DNA of 64,000 nt from Holophagales bacterium (GTDB taxonomy: Bacteria; Acidobacteriota; Thermoanaerobaculia; Multivoradales; Multivoraceae): assembly GCA_009845425.1 (NCBI GenBank), contig VXZQ01000003.1, positions 1 to 64,000 on the forward strand, given 5' to 3'. The notes beneath the pieces are model-generated. The model had not been told where the DNA came from. It worked only from the letters and a program-made list of their open reading frames with translations, and did no database searches. Position 1 is the first letter of the stretch. Each line of letters starts with the position of its first letter. Of this stretch, positions 21,545 to 50,617 are shown in pieces. The position numbers were made by a program, and so were the translations under genes.

Positions 21545-22107
21545 TCTCACGCTCCCTATCCTCACGCGAACGACCCATGCGGGCTAGGTTTCTCGTCGTT
21601 TCGGCGCTGATCGTGGCGCTGGATCAGTGGACCAAGCTCTGGATCGAAGCGGCCCTGGAGCCACACGAGCGGCTGGAAGTCGTGCCGGATCTCTTCGATC
21701 TGGTGCACGTGCAGAACACCGGCATCGCTTTCGGACTGTTTCCAGCCGGGCGTGAACTCGGCGGCACACTGCTACTGACGGCTCTCGGCTTCGCGGCGCT
21801 GGCCATCGTTTCGGTCTACTTCCGGCGCACCTCCGAGCAGGAGCGGCTGCTTCTCCTTTCCCTGTCGCTGGTGCTCGGCGGCGCGGTTGGCAATCTGGTC
21901 GACCGCATCCTGCTGCGAGCGGTTACGGACTTCCTCGACGTGTACATCGGCGCGTACCACTGGCCGGCGTTCAACGTCGCCGACAGCGGCGTCACGGTCG
22001 GCATCGTCCTGATGCTGGTCCACAGCTTCGCTCCGTCGTTGGGAAACCGGAGCAGTGCGGCCACGGCGGGCTCGAGCGACCTGGTCGGCGCCGGCTCGTC
22101 GAAGTGA
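21541..22107 (+). CDS. lspA: Lipoprotein signal peptidase
   Basis: Signal peptidase II cleaves prolipoprotein signal peptides in the inner membrane. Four hydrophobic segments and the aspartyl protease motifs are visible: DQWTK near the N-terminus, VQNTGIAFGLF, GGAVGNLVDRI and FNVADSGVTVG. The GTG at 21541 overlaps the thiE stop (GTGA), the same arrangement as lspA/rluD. ATG at 21577 would remove 12 unconserved residues and is a fair alternative. Putative substrates in this window include the LolB-like and cohesin-like lipoproteins. Confidence 0.93.
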   Translation: MISRSLSSRERPMRARFLVVSALIVALDQWTKLWIEAALEPHERLEVVPDLFDLVHVQNTGIAFGLFPAGRELGGTLLLTALGFAALAIVSVYFRRTSEQERLLLLSLSLVLGGAVGNLVDRILLRAVTDFLDVYIGAYHWPAFNVADSGVTVGIVLMLVHSFAPSLGNRSSAATAGSSDLVGAGSSK

Positions 22108-23066
22108 ACTCGCTGCAGGCCCCGGCCTCGGCGGCGGGCGAACGGGTCGACGTCTACCTCGCACGGGTTCTCGACCAGCCCCGCAACCGGGTCCGGAATC
22201 TCCTCCGCCAGGGCCTGGTCACTGCTGGAGGTTCGCCGCTCAAGCCGTCCTACACACTGCGGGGTGGCGAGGAGATCGTCTACCGGCTGCCGCCGCCTCC
22301 GGCGCAGCGGCCGCTGCCCGAGGCGGGTCCCGTCCCGGTGATCCACGAGGACGACAACCTGTTGATCGTGGACAAGCCCGCCGGACTCATCGTGCACCCC
22401 GGCAGCGGCGTGGCGGGAGGCACCCTGGTGAACAGGCTCCTCCACTACCGACCCGGCATCGCCGGAGTCGGATCCGCGGAACGGCCCGGCATCGTTCATC
22501 GCCTGGACGCGGGTACCACCGGCGCCCTTGCCGTGGCGTGCAACGATGCCGCCTACCGGCGGCTGAGCCGCGCCTTTGCCGAACGCGAGGTCGACAAGGT
22601 CTATCTGGGCGTGGTCTATGGCCGACCCGAATCCCCGGAAGGGCAGATCGAACTACCGATCGGCCGCGATCCTGCCGTGCGCACCCGCATGGCGGTCGTA
22701 AGTGCCGAAAGGGGGGGACGGCCGGCGGTGAGCCGCTACCGGCTGCTGGCGGAAGCGTCCGGCCTCGCGCTGCTGGAACTGAGAATCCTGACCGGCAGGA
22801 CGCACCAGATCCGGGTTCATTGCAAGGCGATCGGACACCCTCTCGTCGGCGATCCGACCTATGGCGAATCTCGCTGGCGAAACCTGGAACCGTCCCTGCG
22901 CCGGCCGTTGCGCGAGTTCCAGCGACCGGCTCTCCATGCATTGCGGCTCACCCTGCCGCGGTTTGCAGGCTCACCCTCCCGCACCTTCACGGCTCACGTG
23001 CCGGAGGACTTTCGGACCCTGTGCCAGGCCTGTTGCCTGGACAAGGGACTGCCGTTCGACTGTTGA
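22104..23066 (+). CDS. rluD: RluD-family 23S rRNA pseudouridine synthase
   Basis: The 320-residue protein has an N-terminal S4-like RNA-binding domain (RVDVYLARVL...RVRNLLRQGLV). The catalytic domain has LLIVDKPAGLIVHPG, the catalytic aspartate in GIVHRLDAGTTG and LLELRILTGRTHQIRVH. RluD modifies helix 69 of 23S rRNA; other RluA-family substrates are possible. The usual HRLDxxTSG has Thr in place of Ser. The GTG start overlaps lspA by four bases, a common lspA-rluD arrangement. Confidence 0.93.
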   Translation: MNSLQAPASAAGERVDVYLARVLDQPRNRVRNLLRQGLVTAGGSPLKPSYTLRGGEEIVYRLPPPPAQRPLPEAGPVPVIHEDDNLLIVDKPAGLIVHPGSGVAGGTLVNRLLHYRPGIAGVGSAERPGIVHRLDAGTTGALAVACNDAAYRRLSRAFAEREVDKVYLGVVYGRPESPEGQIELPIGRDPAVRTRMAVVSAERGGRPAVSRYRLLAEASGLALLELRILTGRTHQIRVHCKAIGHPLVGDPTYGESRWRNLEPSLRRPLREFQRPALHALRLTLPRFAGSPSRTFTAHVPEDFRTLCQACCLDKGLPFDC

Positions 23067-23083
23067 AACGCGACCCGGCCGGG

Positions 23084-23548
23084 CTAGTCGCCCGAGCCGC
23101 CGGCGGCGCTCGCGTAGCCCCGGCTTGGTGTCGCGCCGATCGCCAGCGTGCCGCTCATCTCTATTCTGCCGTTGCAGATACCTCCCTCGGCGATGGACAC
23201 CAGTGGAGCGGTCAGATCGCCCTCAACGGAGCCCGACGACAGCACCTCGATCTTCTCCGATGCCCGGATATCGCCCTTCACGTGGCCTGAAACCTGAACG
23301 GACTGGGCAACCACGTCGGCCTCGATTCGGCCTCGCCGTCCGAGCACGAAACGGCCCTTGAGCTCCACGTTCCCCGTCAGAGAGCCGTCGACCAGGACCT
23401 CGGCGTCACCGGCGATGCTGCCGTCGATGTGCGAACCGGGCGCCACGTACGTGCGCGCCGGCGCGGCCGAAGGCGACCTCACCTCGCCGGGAGGTGTCAG
23501 CGCGGCTTCCGCCGCCGTTTCTTCGAGATCCTTCTTGAAGAACGCCAT
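23084..23548 (-). CDS. Bactofilin family cytoskeletal protein
   Basis: The 154-residue protein starts MAFFKKDLEE, followed by a Pro/Ala linker and a right-handed beta-helix core with the repeating bactofilin pattern: GSHIDGSIAGDAEVLVDGSLTG, GRIEADVVAQSVQVSGHVKG and KIEVLSSGSVEGDL. Bactofilins self-assemble into non-nucleotide filaments involved in shape, stalks or polar organisation. The ATG at 23546-23548 is chosen as the family-typical start. It lies 70 bases downstream of tRNA-Gly on the same strand and is convergent with rluD. Confidence 0.92.
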   Translation of the reverse strand: MAFFKKDLEETAAEAALTPPGEVRSPSAAPARTYVAPGSHIDGSIAGDAEVLVDGSLTGNVELKGRFVLGRRGRIEADVVAQSVQVSGHVKGDIRASEKIEVLSSGSVEGDLTAPLVSIAEGGICNGRIEMSGTLAIGATPSRGYASAAGGSGD

Positions 23549-23617
23549 GTGCTCTTTGTACCCTTCCTGTCTCTGTGGTTTCGTTCCGGACCAGGTCACA
23601 CGTCGGACCGAGGAACC

Positions 23618-23693
23618 TGGAGCGGGCAACGGGACTCGAACCCGCGACATCCAGCTTGGGAAGCTGGCACTCTGCCAACTGAGTTATGCCCGC
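23618..23693 (-). tRNA. tRNA-Gly (CCC)
   Basis: Acceptor stem GCGGGCA/TGCCCGC, anticodon stem CCAGC/GCTGG around TTCCCAA (anticodon CCC), normal D and T arms, and encoded CCA. It complements the GCC isoacceptor at 15.3 kb. Confidence 0.96.
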
Positions 23694-23809
23694 AGGCACT
23701 CGGACCGGGTTCAAGGTAACCCAGCCCCCGCGGGCGGTCAAGCACCCGGCCGGGGCCATTGAAAAAGACGCTATGATGCGCCCCGTCACGCTCCTCCCCG
23801 TCGCGTTTG

Positions 23810-24070
23810 ATGGTCCCCAGCTCCCAGCCCCTCTACTTCTTCCCGGAGCGGGACGTGACCGGCGAGGAACTCGAAGAGATGCTCCATGGCGGGAGCCACG
23901 AGGATCGGTGTACCGCGATCTCCTGCATGCTGCGGTACGCACAGTGGGAGGACATCTGGGATTACGTCTCCCGGGATGAGGTGCGGGAACTGTTCGACGA
24001 CCTCGACCTGCCCGAGAGCCTGCGTGCGGCGTGGGCTCGCATGCTGAAGATCGAGTCGGTCGCCACCTGA
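23810..24070 (+). CDS. Small acidic hypothetical protein
   Basis: I do not recognise this 86-residue protein. Its composition is that of a folded acidic helical protein (EELEEMLHGG, MLRYAQWEDIWDYVSRDEV, LDLPESLRAAWARML), with two cysteines and no signal or membrane segment. The ATG at 23810 is chosen; a TTG directly before it is possible. There is no Shine-Dalgarno. A TATGAT box lies at 23772-23777. It ends three bases from the convergent AIM24-family gene. Confidence 0.65.
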   Translation: MVPSSQPLYFFPERDVTGEELEEMLHGGSHEDRCTAISCMLRYAQWEDIWDYVSRDEVRELFDDLDLPESLRAAWARMLKIESVAT

Positions 24071-43027: not shown

Positions 43028-45508
43028 ATGAGGGCGGCGCGGGAAGTCCCGGACCTGGTGCGGGACTGGTGCGTCAGGCACTGGCGCTGGCTGGCGCCGG
43101 TCGCCGTCACCCCGCTCGCGGGCGTGTTGCTGGGAGTCGGCGTCGCCACGGTGATTGATCTGCCGCAGGTCGAGACCGTGGCCGAACTCACGCCCAGTCA
43201 GATCACCCGGCTGAGCGACCGCCACGGAGAACCGTTCAGGAGCTATTCGGTCGAGAAGCGCATCCTGCTCTCCGAGGGAGAGGTGCCGGAGACGTTCACG
43301 CGTGTCCTGCTCGCCGCCGAGGACCGGAACTTCTACAAGCACGCCGGCTTCGACATCATCGGCGTCTTTCGGGCGGTGCTCCAGAACTGGCAGCGTGGGG
43401 AGCGTTTCTCGGGCGCCTCGACGATCACCATGCAGGTGGCGCGGATGCTCTTCCTGGATCGGGCCAAGGTCTGGCGCCGGAAGATCCGGGAGACCCTGCT
43501 CGCGGTCGAGCTCGAGAAGCGTCTCAGCAAGCAGCAGATCCTCACCCTCTACTGCAACCTCACCTACTTCGGCCACGGCAACTACGGCGTGGAATCCGCG
43601 TCCCGCTACTACTTCGGGAAGCCGTCGGCCGAACTGACCTACACCGAGGCGGCGACCCTGGTAGCGATCGTGCCGAGCCCCAGCGTGTGGACGCCCTACC
43701 TTCGACCAGAGATCGTGCGCACCCGCCGCGACGCCATCCTGCGGATGCTCGGTGAGCGTGGCGTGATGACGCGGGGCGAGGCCGCCGAGGCGGCCGCGAT
43801 GCCGCTGGACGTCGTCACCCAGCGGGAACCGAAGCCGGTCGCGCCCTACTTCGCGGAGAAGGTCCGCCTCGACCTCTACCGTTCGTACGGACAGAAGGGT
43901 CTGTACGAGCGCGGCCTGCAGGTCCAGACAACTCTCGACCAGAGAATGCAGAACGCTGCCGAGCAGGCCCTGCGCGGAGGGTTGGTAAGGATCGACCGTC
44001 TGCGCGGCTACCGGGGAGCGGTCGCCCGCGTGAACCAGGACGATCTCACGACCCCGGATCTGGCCGAGTCGTTCGGCGGCGTTCTGGCCCGATGGGTCGG
44101 CTTCGAGCCCGAGGCCGGCGCCTGGGTACCGGGGGTCGTTCTACAGAGCGGGAAGAAGAACGCGGAAGTCCGGATCGCGAATCACCGTTTCATGCTGGAG
44201 CCGGCGGGCTACGAGTGGACGCGCAGGGACGCGCCGCCGCTGCGGAGGGGCGACGTCGCCTGGTTCGAGTTGCGGAGCGTCGAGGATGCCGCTTCAGTTG
44301 AAGAAGGCACGGACCAGGCGCAGTTCGCCCTGGAGCTCGTCCAGGAACCGCGGATCGAGGGCGCGGTCCTGCTGCTCGAGTCGGCGACCGGCGCGGTGCG
44401 AGCGATGGTCGGAGGCTGGGACTACGAGCGCAGCGAGTTCAACCGCGCCTTTCAGGCCCGCCGTCAGATCGGTTCCCTGTTCAAGCCGCTCGTGTTCGGC
44501 GCCGCCTTCGAGCACGGCTTCACTCCCGCCGACACGCTGTTCGACGCACCCGCCGTCTTCCTCGGCGCCGACAACCAGCTCAACTACAGCCCCCGGAACT
44601 TCTACCGGCAGTACCTGGGGATTCTGACCCTGCGCCGTGCCCTGGAAAGGTCGGTCAACGTCACCTCGGTCAAGCTCCACGACATCGTCGGGGCGGAACG
44701 GGTCGTCGACTTCGCCCACCGCACGGGCATCCGCTCGCCGCTCCTGCCCTATCCGAGTCTCGCTCTGGGCGCGGCCGACCTCACCGTGCTCGAAGTGGCG
44801 ACCTCCTACGCCACGATCGCCAACCTGGGAGTACACGTGGAGCCCTACTTCCTCGAGCGGGTCACGACCCGTGACGGCCGCGAACTCGATGTCCATGTGC
44901 CGCATGCATCGACCGTCGTCACCCCCGAAGTGGCCTTCCTGCTGACCCATGTGCTTTCGGGTGTGGTCCAGCGCGGAACGGGCCAGTCGGCGCGGGCACT
45001 CGGCCTCGCGGCGGTTGCCGGGAAGACCGGTACCACTGACGGGTTCACGGACGCCTGGTTCGCTGGCTTCACGCCCAGGTACACCCTGGTCGTCTGGGTG
45101 GGCTACGACCAGCAACAGCGCATCGGCCGGAACATGACCGGTGCCGTGGCGGCACTGCCGATCTGGAACGAGGTGCTCCGCCTGGGCATCGAGGACGGCT
45201 GGGTGGACCCCACCCTCTCTTTCACCAGGCCCAACCAGGTGCGGCTCCGCCAGGTCGAGTACTACTCCGGCCTTCTGCCGGCGCGACGCCGTTCCGGCCA
45301 GCGCGTCATCGAGGAGGCCTTCATTGCCGGCACCGAGCCGGTCTTGTCTTTCGATCCCGAGACCCGCGCGGTTTACGACCTGCCGTGGTACCAGCAACGC
45401 GCACTCTACGGCGAGCCGAAGGCGGGAGAGAACATGCCCGAAGACGTCGCCGACTGGACGCCGATCATGCGCGGCTGGCAGAAGGGCGATCGGGCCGACG
45501 GTTCCTGA
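43028..45508 (+). CDS. Class A penicillin-binding protein (PBP1A type)
   Basis: A bifunctional peptidoglycan glycosyltransferase and transpeptidase. The 826-residue protein has a short cytoplasmic N-terminus and one transmembrane helix (about 22-42). The GT51 domain has AAEDRNFYKHAGFD, GASTITMQVARMLF, RKIRETLLAVELEKRLSK and TYFGHGNYGVESAS. The transpeptidase domain has SxxK in IGSLFKPLVFG, SxN in RSVNVTSVKL and GKTGTTDGFTDAWFAGFTP. All catalytic motifs are intact. An OB-like insertion lies between the domains (about 345-460). No Shine-Dalgarno precedes the ATG. Confidence 0.96.
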   Translation: MRAAREVPDLVRDWCVRHWRWLAPVAVTPLAGVLLGVGVATVIDLPQVETVAELTPSQITRLSDRHGEPFRSYSVEKRILLSEGEVPETFTRVLLAAEDRNFYKHAGFDIIGVFRAVLQNWQRGERFSGASTITMQVARMLFLDRAKVWRRKIRETLLAVELEKRLSKQQILTLYCNLTYFGHGNYGVESASRYYFGKPSAELTYTEAATLVAIVPSPSVWTPYLRPEIVRTRRDAILRMLGERGVMTRGEAAEAAAMPLDVVTQREPKPVAPYFAEKVRLDLYRSYGQKGLYERGLQVQTTLDQRMQNAAEQALRGGLVRIDRLRGYRGAVARVNQDDLTTPDLAESFGGVLARWVGFEPEAGAWVPGVVLQSGKKNAEVRIANHRFMLEPAGYEWTRRDAPPLRRGDVAWFELRSVEDAASVEEGTDQAQFALELVQEPRIEGAVLLLESATGAVRAMVGGWDYERSEFNRAFQARRQIGSLFKPLVFGAAFEHGFTPADTLFDAPAVFLGADNQLNYSPRNFYRQYLGILTLRRALERSVNVTSVKLHDIVGAERVVDFAHRTGIRSPLLPYPSLALGAADLTVLEVATSYATIANLGVHVEPYFLERVTTRDGRELDVHVPHASTVVTPEVAFLLTHVLSGVVQRGTGQSARALGLAAVAGKTGTTDGFTDAWFAGFTPRYTLVVWVGYDQQQRIGRNMTGAVAALPIWNEVLRLGIEDGWVDPTLSFTRPNQVRLRQVEYYSGLLPARRRSGQRVIEEAFIAGTEPVLSFDPETRAVYDLPWYQQRALYGEPKAGENMPEDVADWTPIMRGWQKGDRADGS

Positions 45509-45571
45509 ATCCTGATCGTCGGCGTCGGGGGTGAGGCGTTGGCCGCCTCGGCTTCCGAGCGATGCCTCCAG

Positions 45572-45577
45572 TACCAT
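45572..45577 (+). promoter_or_regulatory. Possible -10 box of the membrane sulfatase-like gene
   Basis: TACCAT lies 14 bases before the ATG at 45592, in the 83-base interval after the PBP gene. It would exclude the alternative ATG at 45562 as the start. No -35 is clear. Confidence 0.3.
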
Positions 45578-45591
45578 CGCCCGCCGGACCC

Positions 45592-48201
45592 ATGAACCAA
45601 GCTGGCGCTTCAGACCCGGATCCACCGCTCTGGGCGCGTGCAACAGCTCGGGCAGCCGATCTCGGTCGCGCGGTCCGTCCCCGGCGACCAACGCGGGATG
45701 CCCCCAACGCCGCGCGCCTTGAAGCACTCCACGTGACGGCCCTTTGCGGCATTGCCGTCGCCCAACCGATCTTCGATGTCGTGGGGCGCAGCCCGGAGTT
45801 CTTCGTCGCCCATGACGCCAGCCCGACCGATCTGCTGGCGCTCGTGGCGTTTCTCTGCTTCGCCATTCCGTCAGGCTGCGTGCTCCTCATTCATCTGGCT
45901 GGCCTTTCCTGTGGCTGGCGCTGGCGCCGGCGCGTCGCCGGCACGTTGATCGGTGTGCTCGCCGGAGCGGTAGCCCTCGCGGCGTTCAGGCCCCTCGGCG
46001 AAGGTTCCTACGGCATGTCCGCCGCCCTGGTCGTCATCACGGCCTCCGCCTCGGCCGGCGCCTATCTTCGATTCCCGCCGGTCCGCTTGTTCGTCTCCTT
46101 TCTTGCCCCGGCAATCCTGGCCGTACCGGCGGCCTTTCTGCTGAGCCCCGGCGTCGGCCGCGTCCTGGCGCCCACCGACGACGTCGGCGCGCTCGACGGT
46201 GTGTCGTTCCGCTCCACGCCGCCCGTGGTGGTTGTCGTCTTCGATCAGTTCCAGCTCGCGGCGTTGCTCGATTCCGACGGCAACATCGACCGTGCGGTCT
46301 TTCCGAACTTCGCTGCGCTGGCCGACGACGCCACCTGGTTCCGCAACGCCACCGCCGTTGCCAACATGACGATTCATGCCTTGCCGGCGGTCGTTACCGG
46401 AAGCTACCCGTCTCGCGGTCGCCTGCCGGTGGCCGCAGACCATACGGCGAATCTGTTCACGTTGCTGGGGAGCCGGTATCGCCTGCACGTCGAGGAGCCG
46501 TTGACCGGTCTGTGTCCGGAATCGCTGTGTCCCGCCGAACGCCCGGGATTCGGCGCCCGGCTCTCCGGAGTACTGCGAGACCTGGCAGTCGTGTATCCGA
46601 GGGTGCTGCTGCCGGAGGGACTGGTCGCGTCCCTCCCGCCAGTAAACCAGACGTGGAAGGACTTCGCTGCAAACGCGGCCAACGAGACGGTGCAGAACCG
46701 ATGGCGGTCTGCGCGGGCCGAGGACCGCCGGGAGCCAGCCGACCGTTTCATCGAGTCGATCACCGCAGCCGGACCGACGCTGCACTTTCTCCATGTGCTT
46801 CTACCGCACGAACCCTGGGTCTACCTGCCGACGGGGCAGCGATTCACGTTTCAGGGACGCACCATCGGCCTGCGGGATGGAAAGTGGGTCGACGACGACT
46901 GGGCCGCCGCGCTCAACTACCAGCGCTACCTGCTCCAGGTGGGCTACTCCGACACGCTGCTTGGCAGACTGGTGGCGCGCCTGCGCAAGGTCGGCATCTA
47001 TGACGAGGCGTTGATCGTCGTCACCGCCGACCACGGCGCCAGCCTGCGGCCCGGCATGTCGTTTCGACGTCCGAATCGGTCTTCGTTCGCGGAGATCGCA
47101 GCCGTGCCACTCTTTCTGAAGCGGCCCGGGCAGCGCCGGGGAGCGGTGAGCGATGCCAACGTGGAGGTTGTCGACATCGTCCCGACGGTCGCCGCCGAGC
47201 TCGGCGCGGCGCTGCCGTGGAACGCCGACGGCAGGAACGCGCTGGATGCCGCTCTGGCGCCGCGTCCGACCAAGGTGATGTTCTTCAACAGGGCAAACGA
47301 ACGCATGGAGGCCCCGGGCGACCTTCGTCGGGCCGTGATCGAGGGCGCCGCGCGGAAGTTCAGTTGGTTCCGAACAGGCAATCCCCTGGACGTTCCAACC
47401 CCCGAAGACCGCTACGGAACGCTGATCGGCCGTGCGGTCGATCAGCTGCGCACCGTGCAGCCGGCGCCTGTCGAAGTGCTCGTCGACGCTCTGCCGCTGA
47501 TGCAGGAGGTTGATCCGGATGGCGATTTCGTCCCTGCCCACATCACAGGCGCCGTGGTCAGCGAGGGAGACGGTCCGCCGGCGCCGATGCTGGCGATCGC
47601 ACTGAACGGCACCGTAGCGGCGGTGACGCGTCCGTACTCCTTCCCGGTGATGGGCCGGCGTGCTGCCTGGGAAGCAATCGTTGATCCGCGCTGGTTCGTA
47701 CAAGGCGCCAACTCCCTGGAAGTATTCGACGTTCGCGAGCGCGGCAGGGACGGCACGGTGGCGCTTGCCGCGGTCCACCGCAACGCGGCACAGACTCGCT
47801 GGCCGAATCTCGTTCGCGAGGAGCAGATTCAGGCCCTTGGCGGCCAGGCTTCCGGTTTCCACGGTACGGAGTGGGCGGGAGACCGTCCCCTCCGCTGGAC
47901 ACGTGGCGATGCGCGGCTGCGGGTCCCGCTCGATCCGCAGTCGCCGCCAACGGAACTGGCGGTGGAAGTCGTGATGACCGGCGGCGCCAAGCGGTTCCGG
48001 ATCGCCGCCGATGGCTGTCTGCTCTTTGACGAGACCATCCGGGACCGCTGGAAGGCGACGTTCGATCTCGGCAGTTGCGTGCTCCAGCCACCCGAAGTGG
48101 AGATCGCGCTGCTCAGCGATACGCACCTTCCCGCGTCGCGCGACAGCCGCAGCCTGGGCGTCGCGGTCGGCCGGGTCGAGTTGCGCGCCGCGGTTCCCTA
48201 A
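45592..48201 (+). CDS. Membrane-anchored sulfatase/alkaline-phosphatase-superfamily protein
   Basis: The 869-residue protein has an N-terminal basic region and about four transmembrane helices (roughly 45-180). An alkaline-phosphatase-fold domain fills about 200-560, with VVVVVFDQFQ (first metal aspartate) and NMTIHALPAVVTG (probable nucleophile Thr region). LLPHEPWVY and VVTADHGAS (metal Asp-His) complete the site. A C-terminal beta-rich region follows. The overall layout resembles LtaS/phosphoethanolamine-transferase-like membrane enzymes, but the classical Cys/Ser sulfatase signature is absent and the substrate is unknown. An upstream in-frame ATG at 45562 would add 10 residues. It lies just after the PBP gene on the same strand. 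Confidence 0.85.
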   Translation: MNQAGASDPDPPLWARATARAADLGRAVRPRRPTRDAPNAARLEALHVTALCGIAVAQPIFDVVGRSPEFFVAHDASPTDLLALVAFLCFAIPSGCVLLIHLAGLSCGWRWRRRVAGTLIGVLAGAVALAAFRPLGEGSYGMSAALVVITASASAGAYLRFPPVRLFVSFLAPAILAVPAAFLLSPGVGRVLAPTDDVGALDGVSFRSTPPVVVVVFDQFQLAALLDSDGNIDRAVFPNFAALADDATWFRNATAVANMTIHALPAVVTGSYPSRGRLPVAADHTANLFTLLGSRYRLHVEEPLTGLCPESLCPAERPGFGARLSGVLRDLAVVYPRVLLPEGLVASLPPVNQTWKDFAANAANETVQNRWRSARAEDRREPADRFIESITAAGPTLHFLHVLLPHEPWVYLPTGQRFTFQGRTIGLRDGKWVDDDWAAALNYQRYLLQVGYSDTLLGRLVARLRKVGIYDEALIVVTADHGASLRPGMSFRRPNRSSFAEIAAVPLFLKRPGQRRGAVSDANVEVVDIVPTVAAELGAALPWNADGRNALDAALAPRPTKVMFFNRANERMEAPGDLRRAVIEGAARKFSWFRTGNPLDVPTPEDRYGTLIGRAVDQLRTVQPAPVEVLVDALPLMQEVDPDGDFVPAHITGAVVSEGDGPPAPMLAIALNGTVAAVTRPYSFPVMGRRAAWEAIVDPRWFVQGANSLEVFDVRERGRDGTVALAAVHRNAAQTRWPNLVREEQIQALGGQASGFHGTEWAGDRPLRWTRGDARLRVPLDPQSPPTELAVEVVMTGGAKRFRIAADGCLLFDETIRDRWKATFDLGSCVLQPPEVEIALLSDTHLPASRDSRSLGVAVGRVELRAAVP

Positions 48202-48209
48202 GGCTGCGT

Positions 48210-49436
48210 CTACGGCCGGATGCCGATCAGGGCGTAGTCGCGGTAGCCGAAGAGGAAATCGTCGAGTTCGTCCCGGAGACGATTCAGCCGATCGGCCAGC
48301 TCCCGGTTCTGTCCGTCCAACCCGTCGAGCGGGATCTCCGGCAGGCGCTCCTCCTCCGGATAGGGCCGCAGGTCGAGCCGCTCGATGCCGGTGAAGCCCG
48401 CCTGTTCGTAGCAGGCCGAGAGCGCCTCCGGATGCACGGGTCTCGTATGGGTCGGATCGAGCCAGAAACTGCGGGCCGTCACCGCGACGGAGAGCGGATT
48501 CGGCGTCTCCAGCACGAGAACCCCTCCCGGCCGGAGAGCGGCGAAGGCGAGCCGCACCAGGCGCTCGATGTCTTCCGGAACCAGATGCTCGATGACGTGG
48601 AAGGAGACCACGCCGCCCAGGGATGCCGGCTCGGTCTGAGCCAGTGCGGACAGCGCGTCTTTTTGCTCGACCCCGAGACCCTGCTCCAGGCAGTGGCGCA
48701 CCATCGCCGAGGAGGGGTCGACGCCGCAACACTCCACGCCCTCGGCCTCCAGCAGCGCCAGGGCTTCACCCCGGCCGCAGCCCAGGTCCAGGACCGGTGC
48801 GGCCTGACGGAGGCGCGGCAGGTAAACGCGAATGCGGTCCCGGATGTCTTCTTCAGCGCCACGGAACCGGTGCTCGAAGTCGATGTAGGAGACGTCGGTG
48901 TCGGCCTCCCGGAGTTCCTTATCCGCTTCGGGTCCCCGGGCCACGGCCGTCCTCAGCAGCCCTGCCAGTTCATCGGTTTCCCGCCGGTAGCGGTCCAGCT
49001 TACGGTCGACGCGGCCGAACAGGGCGTCGTCGTGGCGCATGACCTCGTCGAGCCCCTGGCGCAGGAAGTTCTCCAGGTGCCGCGTCCGGTGGTCGAGATC
49101 GCCGATGCGCTGCTCGAACAGTCGTTCCACCCGTTCCTGATGATCCTTCCACTGCTGGAGGTGCTGCTCAAAGACATCGAGCAGGATCAGGTTGAAGACC
49201 CGTTGCCGTTCCCAGAGGTCGTTCTGAGGCAACGAGACGAAGGGGCGCAACAGCCGCTTGAAAGCAACGAGCAAGCGGCCGGCAAGACCGCGATCGCTGC
49301 GGATCGGAAACGGGATGTCCCGCTCCCAGAGATGGCGCCAGTCGCCGAGATGACGCGTCGGCTGGTCACCCAGGAAGTCGTCGACTTCGGGTGGGGCCCC
49401 GGCGCCGGAGCTATCGCTATCGGCTCTAGGTTTCAG
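48210..49436 (-). CDS. SAM-dependent methyltransferase with coiled-coil region, probable CTG start
   Basis: From a CTG at 49434-49436 the product has 408 residues. The N-terminal segment includes WERDIPFPIRSDRG and KRLLRPFVSLP, followed by a helical/coiled-coil stretch (about 80-170). A class I methyltransferase domain has VLDLGCGRGEALALLEAEG, VSFHVIEHL and LRPGGVLVLETPNP. Proteins of this layout often lie in surface-polysaccharide loci, so a glycan substrate is possible but unproven. No ATG, GTG or TTG lies in frame between an in-frame stop inside rplI and TTG at 49272-49274, which would remove protein-like sequence. The CTG has GAGG six bases upstream. It overlaps the rplI end by 11 bases. 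Confidence 0.85.
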   Translation of the reverse strand: MKPRADSDSSGAGAPPEVDDFLGDQPTRHLGDWRHLWERDIPFPIRSDRGLAGRLLVAFKRLLRPFVSLPQNDLWERQRVFNLILLDVFEQHLQQWKDHQERVERLFEQRIGDLDHRTRHLENFLRQGLDEVMRHDDALFGRVDRKLDRYRRETDELAGLLRTAVARGPEADKELREADTDVSYIDFEHRFRGAEEDIRDRIRVYLPRLRQAAPVLDLGCGRGEALALLEAEGVECCGVDPSSAMVRHCLEQGLGVEQKDALSALAQTEPASLGGVVSFHVIEHLVPEDIERLVRLAFAALRPGGVLVLETPNPLSVAVTARSFWLDPTHTRPVHPEALSACYEQAGFTGIERLDLRPYPEEERLPEIPLDGLDGQNRELADRLNRLRDELDDFLFGYRDYALIGIRP

Positions 49437-49872
49437 GCACTACCTCGATGGCGACTTCGGCGATGACTTCCGTGTGGAGGTCGACCCGCACGACGTGCTC
49501 GCCCACGGTCTTGATGCCGCCGGTGAGATCGATCATGCGGCGGTCCACTTGCACCCCGGCAGCATCGAGCGCCTCGGTGACCTCCGTGGGGGTCACCGAG
49601 CCGTACAGGGTCCCGGTCTCGCTGGCCCGCTTGGCGATCGTCAGCTTGACCGCCGCGAGTTCAGCCGCGACCTCGGCGGCGGCCGAGCGCTCCGCCTCGT
49701 GGCGAGCGTCGAACTTCTTCCGTTGCGACTCGAACCAGAGCCGGTTCGACTCGGTGGAGGGGGCCGCCAGCTCCCTCGGATAGAGGTAGTTGCGGGCATA
49801 CCCGGGCTTCACGTCGACCACCTGGCCGCGCGTGCCCAGCCCTCTCATGTCCTGTAGCAGGATGACTTCCAT
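49426..49872 (-). CDS. rplI: 50S ribosomal protein L9
   Basis: The 148-residue protein begins MEVILLQDMRGLGTRGQVVDVKPGYARNYL (in parts), the L9 N-terminal RNA-binding signature. A long connecting helix and the C-terminal domain (TLYGSVTPTEVTEALDAAGVQV) follow. It ends the rpsF-rpsR-rplI cluster; the methyltransferase gene overlaps its last codons. Confidence 0.97.
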   Translation of the reverse strand: MEVILLQDMRGLGTRGQVVDVKPGYARNYLYPRELAAPSTESNRLWFESQRKKFDARHEAERSAAAEVAAELAAVKLTIAKRASETGTLYGSVTPTEVTEALDAAGVQVDRRMIDLTGGIKTVGEHVVRVDLHTEVIAEVAIEVVPET

Positions 49873-49914: not shown

Positions 49915-50145
49915 TCAGTCCGTCGTGTAGGGGATCAGGGCCAGAAAACGGGCCCGTCGCAACGCGCGGGCAAGCATCCGCTGGTGGCGCGCGGAGTTGC
50001 CCGAGATCCGGCGCGGCAGGATCTTGGCCCTTTCCGGCACGAAGGAGCGCAGCGTGGCGACATCCTTGTAGTCAATGTACTCGATCCCGTCGGCGGTGAA
50101 CTTGCACACCTTGCGGCGCCGGAAGAACGTTCTGCGTTTCGCCAT
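49915..50145 (-). CDS. rpsR: 30S ribosomal protein S18
   Basis: The 76-residue protein starts [20 protein letters not shown] and contains [10 protein letters not shown]-type and [25 protein letters not shown] segments typical of S18, with the usual length. The GGAGGTGG Shine-Dalgarno lies in the last codons of the preceding mini-ORF, whose stop is two bases away. S18 pairs with S6 in the 30S platform, and the two genes are almost always neighbours. Confidence 0.97.
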
Positions 50146-50147
50146 TT

Positions 50148-50228
50148 CTAGTGCCCACCTCCAACTGCGGCGCGACGATCATCCCCGTCGCCGGGGCGCC
50201 GGCCGCGTCGCTGTCTGCGTTTCGCCAT
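50148..50228 (-). CDS. 26-codon arginine-rich mini-ORF between rpsF and rpsR
   Basis: ATG at 50226-50228 to TAG at 50148-50150 encodes [20 protein letters not shown] plus six residues. It lies two bases after the rpsF stop and two before the rpsR start. It has its own GGAGG Shine-Dalgarno nine bases upstream, inside the rpsF end. Its first 15 bases are identical to those of rpsR, so it may derive from a tandem duplication of the S18 start region. It could encode a real small basic protein, act as a leader that couples translation, or be a duplication relic. I know of no such protein. Confidence 0.45.
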
Positions 50229-50230
50229 CT

Positions 50231-50617
50231 CTAGACGCCTCCAGCCGCCTGGCTCGGGGCGGTGGCCATGGTCGTCTGCTGGACCGGCTCCTTGCCCTTG
50301 CTGGCGGCGCGCTTCAGGTCCAGGTCGGTCCGCACCACCAGGTGACGCAGGATCTTCTCGTTCTGGAGCATCCGCTGTCCGATCTCGGCGAGGCCGTTGT
50401 CCCCTCCCTCGCACTCCAGGTAGTAGATGTGGTAGCGACCTTCGGTGAACTTCCTGATCGGGTAGGCCAGGCGCCGCTTGCCCCAGGATTCCTCCTGGGT
50501 GATCTGCAGCTTGCCGTCGGCGACCAGCAACTTGCCGAAGGTATCGCTCAACTCCACGGCTTCTTCATCCGAGAGGCGCGGATCGGCGATGAAGACGAGT
50601 TCGTATGTCCGTGTCAA
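50231..50617 (-). CDS. rpsF: 30S ribosomal protein S6
   Basis: The 128-residue protein begins [19 protein letters not shown] and has the S6 core [21 protein letters not shown], plus a Gln/Ala-rich tail. The start is TTG at 50615-50617 with AGAGG eight bases upstream. A three-codon ATG ORF (ATG AAC GAT TGA) begins just before it and stops across it. It is the first ribosomal gene of rpsF-rpsR-rplI; ssb, often located here in other bacteria, is instead at 60.1 kb. Confidence 0.96.

Follow-up and report, generated by a model that had tools for sequence, protein, structure and literature searches.

Introduction

Translational coupling by termination-reinitiation is sensitive to the distance between stop and start codons, and in E. 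coli and H. volcanii a separation of about 20 nt removes nearly all of it (PMC10666635). The operon of the ribosomal protein genes rpsF and rpsR has its own described control element, the S6:S18 autoregulatory leader, which precedes rpsF (PMC4647458). The window analysed here, i.e. the whole stretch of 64,000 nucleotides from an acidobacterial genome (G000), carries the same genes, and an additional small open reading frame (ORF) separates them. No Rfam match to the S6:S18 leader was obtained in 48.8-51.8 kb of the window, and a literature search for a small ORF within rpsF-rpsR found nothing.

The rpsF-rpsR junction and its counterparts in relatives

Three ribosomal protein genes follow one another on the minus strand: rpsF (bS6, TTG start, 128 aa; 50231..50617; Pfam PF01250, E 1.6e-21; NCBIfam TIGR00166, E 7.2e-18), rpsR (bS18, 76 aa; 49915..50145; Pfam PF01084, E 1.1e-23; TIGR00165, E 1.5e-31), of which the genome has one copy, and rplI (bL9; 49426..49872; Pfam PF01281/PF03948). 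Between the first two, on the same strand, lies a 26-codon ATG-TAG ORF (50148..50228), separated by two bases from the rpsF stop on one side and by two from the rpsR start on the other; the coordinates agree with the preliminary description, in which an intact frame filled the S6-S18 gap. Read along the minus strand, rpsF ends in ...GGAGGCGTC-TAG (stop at 50233-50231), followed by AG and by the ORF itself, ATG GCG AAA CGC AGA CAG ... GGG CAC TAG (50228-50148), after which AA leads to the ATG of rpsR at 50145. The first 15 bases of the ORF, ATGGCGAAACGCAGA, are also the first 15 bases of rpsR, as had been noticed earlier, and the likeness stretches to 20 bases with one mismatch: TAGAG followed by ATGGCGAAACGCAGA in the first copy (50214..50233) and TAGAA followed by ATGGCGAAACGCAGA in the second, which holds the rpsR start (50131..50150).

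Each of the two starts is preceded by a GGAGG. The one ahead of the ORF, at a distance of 9 nt, was previously described as the ORF's own; it is indeed present, but it sits within the final codons of rpsF and is the Shine-Dalgarno sequence of rpsR in those relatives that have no ORF. The second, within GGAGGTGG (50155..50162), lies inside the last codons of the ORF, 12 nt ahead of the rpsR start, and is likely to serve as the Shine-Dalgarno sequence of rpsR, which bears out the earlier placement of that signal in the ORF end. The ORF-rpsR junction, TAG-AA-ATG with GGAGGTGG upstream, thus has both the spacing and the Shine-Dalgarno position, within the upstream frame, of a ribosome relay.

The gene rpsR was found in 24/24 genomes of the family, and the rpsF-rpsR junctions were read by script in 23 of them and by eye in the last (L022, G023), where a gap of about 17 nt holds no ORF. 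Twelve of the 21 congeners have exactly TAG-AG-ATG or TAG-AA-ATG at this place, seven have gaps of 13-24 nt without an ORF, and the remaining two, G000 and G003, show an 85-nt gap that holds it. The insert is therefore absent from 19/21 congeners, including the sister genome G004, in which just two bases separate rpsF from rpsR and this region is ~99% identical to the window. The small ORF, for which a search between the rpsF and rpsR genes of relatives had been proposed, is thus confined to two of the 21. Outside the genus, the gap is 11 nt in G001. It reaches 157 nt in G002 (L023), with a sequence not related to the window's insert, which suggests that insertions at this junction are tolerated in other parts of the family too. 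Of 20 further members of the order, the script placed both the rpsF and the S18 genes in 11, where the S18 start falls -11 to +3 nt from the rpsF stop; the other nine were not resolved by the script.

Fusion of the ORF to S18 as an N-terminal extension was not seen in the genus. Some members of the order have a basic extension of S18, and for these no relation to the ORF was detected; in one of them, G034 (L072), the extension is rich in Gly and Pro, and the S18 start shares one base with the rpsF stop.

Origin of the insertion

Removal of one 83-bp unit (50146..50228: a 15-bp copy of the rpsR start, 63 nt, and TAGAA) from the window yields the sequence of G004 with 0/77 mismatches, so that the 15-20 bp repeat is not a chance likeness. 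Since G004 lacks the insert and matches the excised sequence exactly, we conclude that an insertion gave rise to the ORF, repeated precise deletion between the repeats being the less likely course. Comparison with relatives shows that 20 bases were duplicated around 63 nt of other DNA. Of the three options that had been offered for the ORF, the duplication scar comes closest: the rpsR start is duplicated, but around a middle for which no source was found.

Searches of the 21 congeners and of 72 order genomes yielded no homologue of this 63-nt middle, only short GC-rich matches, and phages gave no match; an exact 33-base search of genome contigs matched the G003 record alone. A dispersed repeat, MITE or REP element is not indicated, as neither G000 nor the genus has a further full copy, partial GC-rich matches reaching ~40 nt at most, and a dispersed repeat or a phage or plasmid fragment was rejected after the genus and phage searches. 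Two weak matches, both to the GC-rich part, were taken as chance, one to a Rhodococcus plasmid (41 nt, E 6e-3) and one to G045 (82% over 42 nt, E 7.5e-5). Nor is the middle more like the 3' end of rpsF than chance would allow, with 287/1000 shuffles scoring as well, so that an origin by tandem duplication of that end was likewise rejected.

The relationships of the three genomes bear on how the insert came to be shared. At the rpsF-rpsR locus G000 and G004 are sisters (support 1.000), and over the ~47 kb compared they are mostly 96-99% identical. Identity between G000 and G003 is 84-95% outside one tract, and around the insert G003 is 6-8% different. The insert itself is 82/83 identical between these two, whereas the 4-fold sites of rpsF, rpsR, rplI and hppA differ by 12-26%. 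At such rates ~7-16 changes would be expected in 63 neutral sites, and one difference or fewer in 63 nt under vertical neutral descent has a probability of ~0.006 to 1e-6.

The exceptional tract, with approximate limits 45500..49000, starts ~1 kb downstream of rpsR; here G003 is 94-99% identical to the window and G004 is 91-93% identical or unaligned. A sulfatase-family gene (45562..48201, plus strand) is common to G000 and G003 and does not occur at this place in G004. The sequence pattern of the tract shows that a G003-like lineage has recombined with this genome close to the insert, and with such an exchange nearby, transfer is the simplest reading: homologous recombination with a G003-like relative most likely brought the insert into the window's species. 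The inference falls short of proof, since informative sites are missing right beside the insert; all three genomes are identical over the final ~75 nt of rpsF, and at 50128, just past the repeat, G000 differs from G003. A second interval in which identity with G004 falls, to 90-92%, lies at 22001-24000 and is possibly another exchange.

The main alternative, which we regard as unlikely though the strongest of its kind, supposes that the shared ancestor of G000, G004 and G003 already had the insert, that G004 (and G006) lost it cleanly by slipped-strand deletion, and that the 98.8% identity is the mark of purifying selection acting on either a small protein or the leader. Deletion between the 15-bp repeats would leave the G004 sequence exactly, and a divergence of 1/83, with the one change synonymous, stands out against 12-26% at 4-fold sites. 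However, this course needs at least two losses and hence more events, loss in a sister species would mean that the insert is dispensable, and with the G003-like tract ~1 kb off, transfer accounts for the identity without constraint.

Translation and coding potential

We favour, with a probability of about 0.85, a recent 83-bp insertion that is an ordinary indel scar, probably translated, whose peptide is probably functionless and which most likely came by transfer from a G003-like relative. On this account an insertion between rpsF and rpsR in an acidobacterial lineage left 63 nt of unrelated DNA enclosed by two copies of the 20 bases TAGAR-ATGGCGAAACGCAGA, and recombination would later have moved it into the window's species. 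The duplication took in the stop, the start and the two bases between them, and in consequence the former rpsR start opens a 26-codon frame that ends two bases ahead of the new one, where a new GGAGG is supplied. With the old rpsR Shine-Dalgarno sequence and start taken over, the ORF is probably translated, and it would pass ribosomes on to rpsR with unchanged stop-start spacing, much as rpsF did earlier. An 83-bp insert would be expected to uncouple rpsR from rpsF unless its own translation ran on until a few bases ahead of the rpsR start; since gaps of ~20 nt nearly abolish coupling in the pairs tested in PMC10666635, an insert that keeps the 2-nt spacing should be the best tolerated. A point against this reasoning is that other genomes of the family have uncoupled gaps of 11-157 nt, so that the group can do without tight coupling and without selection for its geometry. 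The coupling leader proposed in the preliminary description is plausible as a passive result of the insertion, in which the TAG-NN-ATG geometry was duplicated along, and in that form only.

A leader evolved for tuning rpsR apart from rpsF is improbable. The likely rpsR Shine-Dalgarno sequence now lies in the last codons of the ORF, directly downstream of a GC-rich hairpin, which would suit such a role, but this fold is no stabler than those of shuffled sequences (z -1.00; the two scores for the insert region, 0.21 and -1.00, are not unusual), and the leader is neither conserved nor matched in Rfam. A structured RNA was rejected, as Rfam matches in the searched 48.8-51.8 kb lie far below gathering scores and folding is ordinary. 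It is somewhat more doubtful still that the insert is a newborn translated micro-gene, spread by recombination between related species and kept for tuning or relaying S18 synthesis.

As to the frame itself, 84% of 63-nt stretches of the same composition (78% G+C, order-1 Markov) stay open, and a third of insertion lengths preserve the frame, so that chance alone would leave an intact ORF in ~28% of such insertions; an open frame is nothing remarkable here, and is weak evidence. The sole difference between the G000 and G003 inserts, at 50190, is synonymous in the ORF (GGC/GGA), a single site that does not tell purifying selection from neutral change. The peptide has no match in Pfam or NCBIfam. 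Its arginine-rich beginning is a copy of the rpsR start, the comparison with relatives lends no support to a conserved coding role, and the peptide is probably without selected function. The tiny ribosome-associated protein once suggested, working for instance with S6:S18, hardly survives these results: its basic composition is what GC-rich random sequence would give, the match of its first codons to S18 is accounted for by the duplicated rpsR start, and in spite of a strong predicted initiation site it occurs in two species only, without any family match. Just as little credit is due to an assembly or binning artefact, a chimera of co-occurring strains: at least G003 is a metagenome-assembled genome and a chimeric assembly could yield a mosaic of G003-like and G004-like sequence, but the insert stands at the same place in two genomes, with one base different and with differing flanks.

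The importance of the case beyond annotation is little. It illustrates how a probably translated 'orphan' ORF can arise in a ribosomal protein operon when a stop-start junction undergoes one small duplication that leaves the geometry undisturbed, and it advises caution, since such ORFs should not be called genes before relatives have been checked.

Comparison with known systems

Set beside the S6:S18 autoregulatory leader, the insert belongs to the same operon, but it follows rpsF, whereas the leader precedes it. With repeat-flanked short insertions or duplications at intergenic junctions it shares the property that one copy and the middle can be removed to give the empty site of the relatives; it differs in that the two 20-nt repeat copies are unlike at one base and that the middle is without a matched source. 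The arrangement resembles translational coupling by termination-reinitiation (PMC6728339, PMC10666635) in the 2-nt distance between stop and start and in the Shine-Dalgarno sequence at the end of the upstream frame; what sets it apart is that this frame is a 26-codon ORF that is not conserved and whose translation is predicted.
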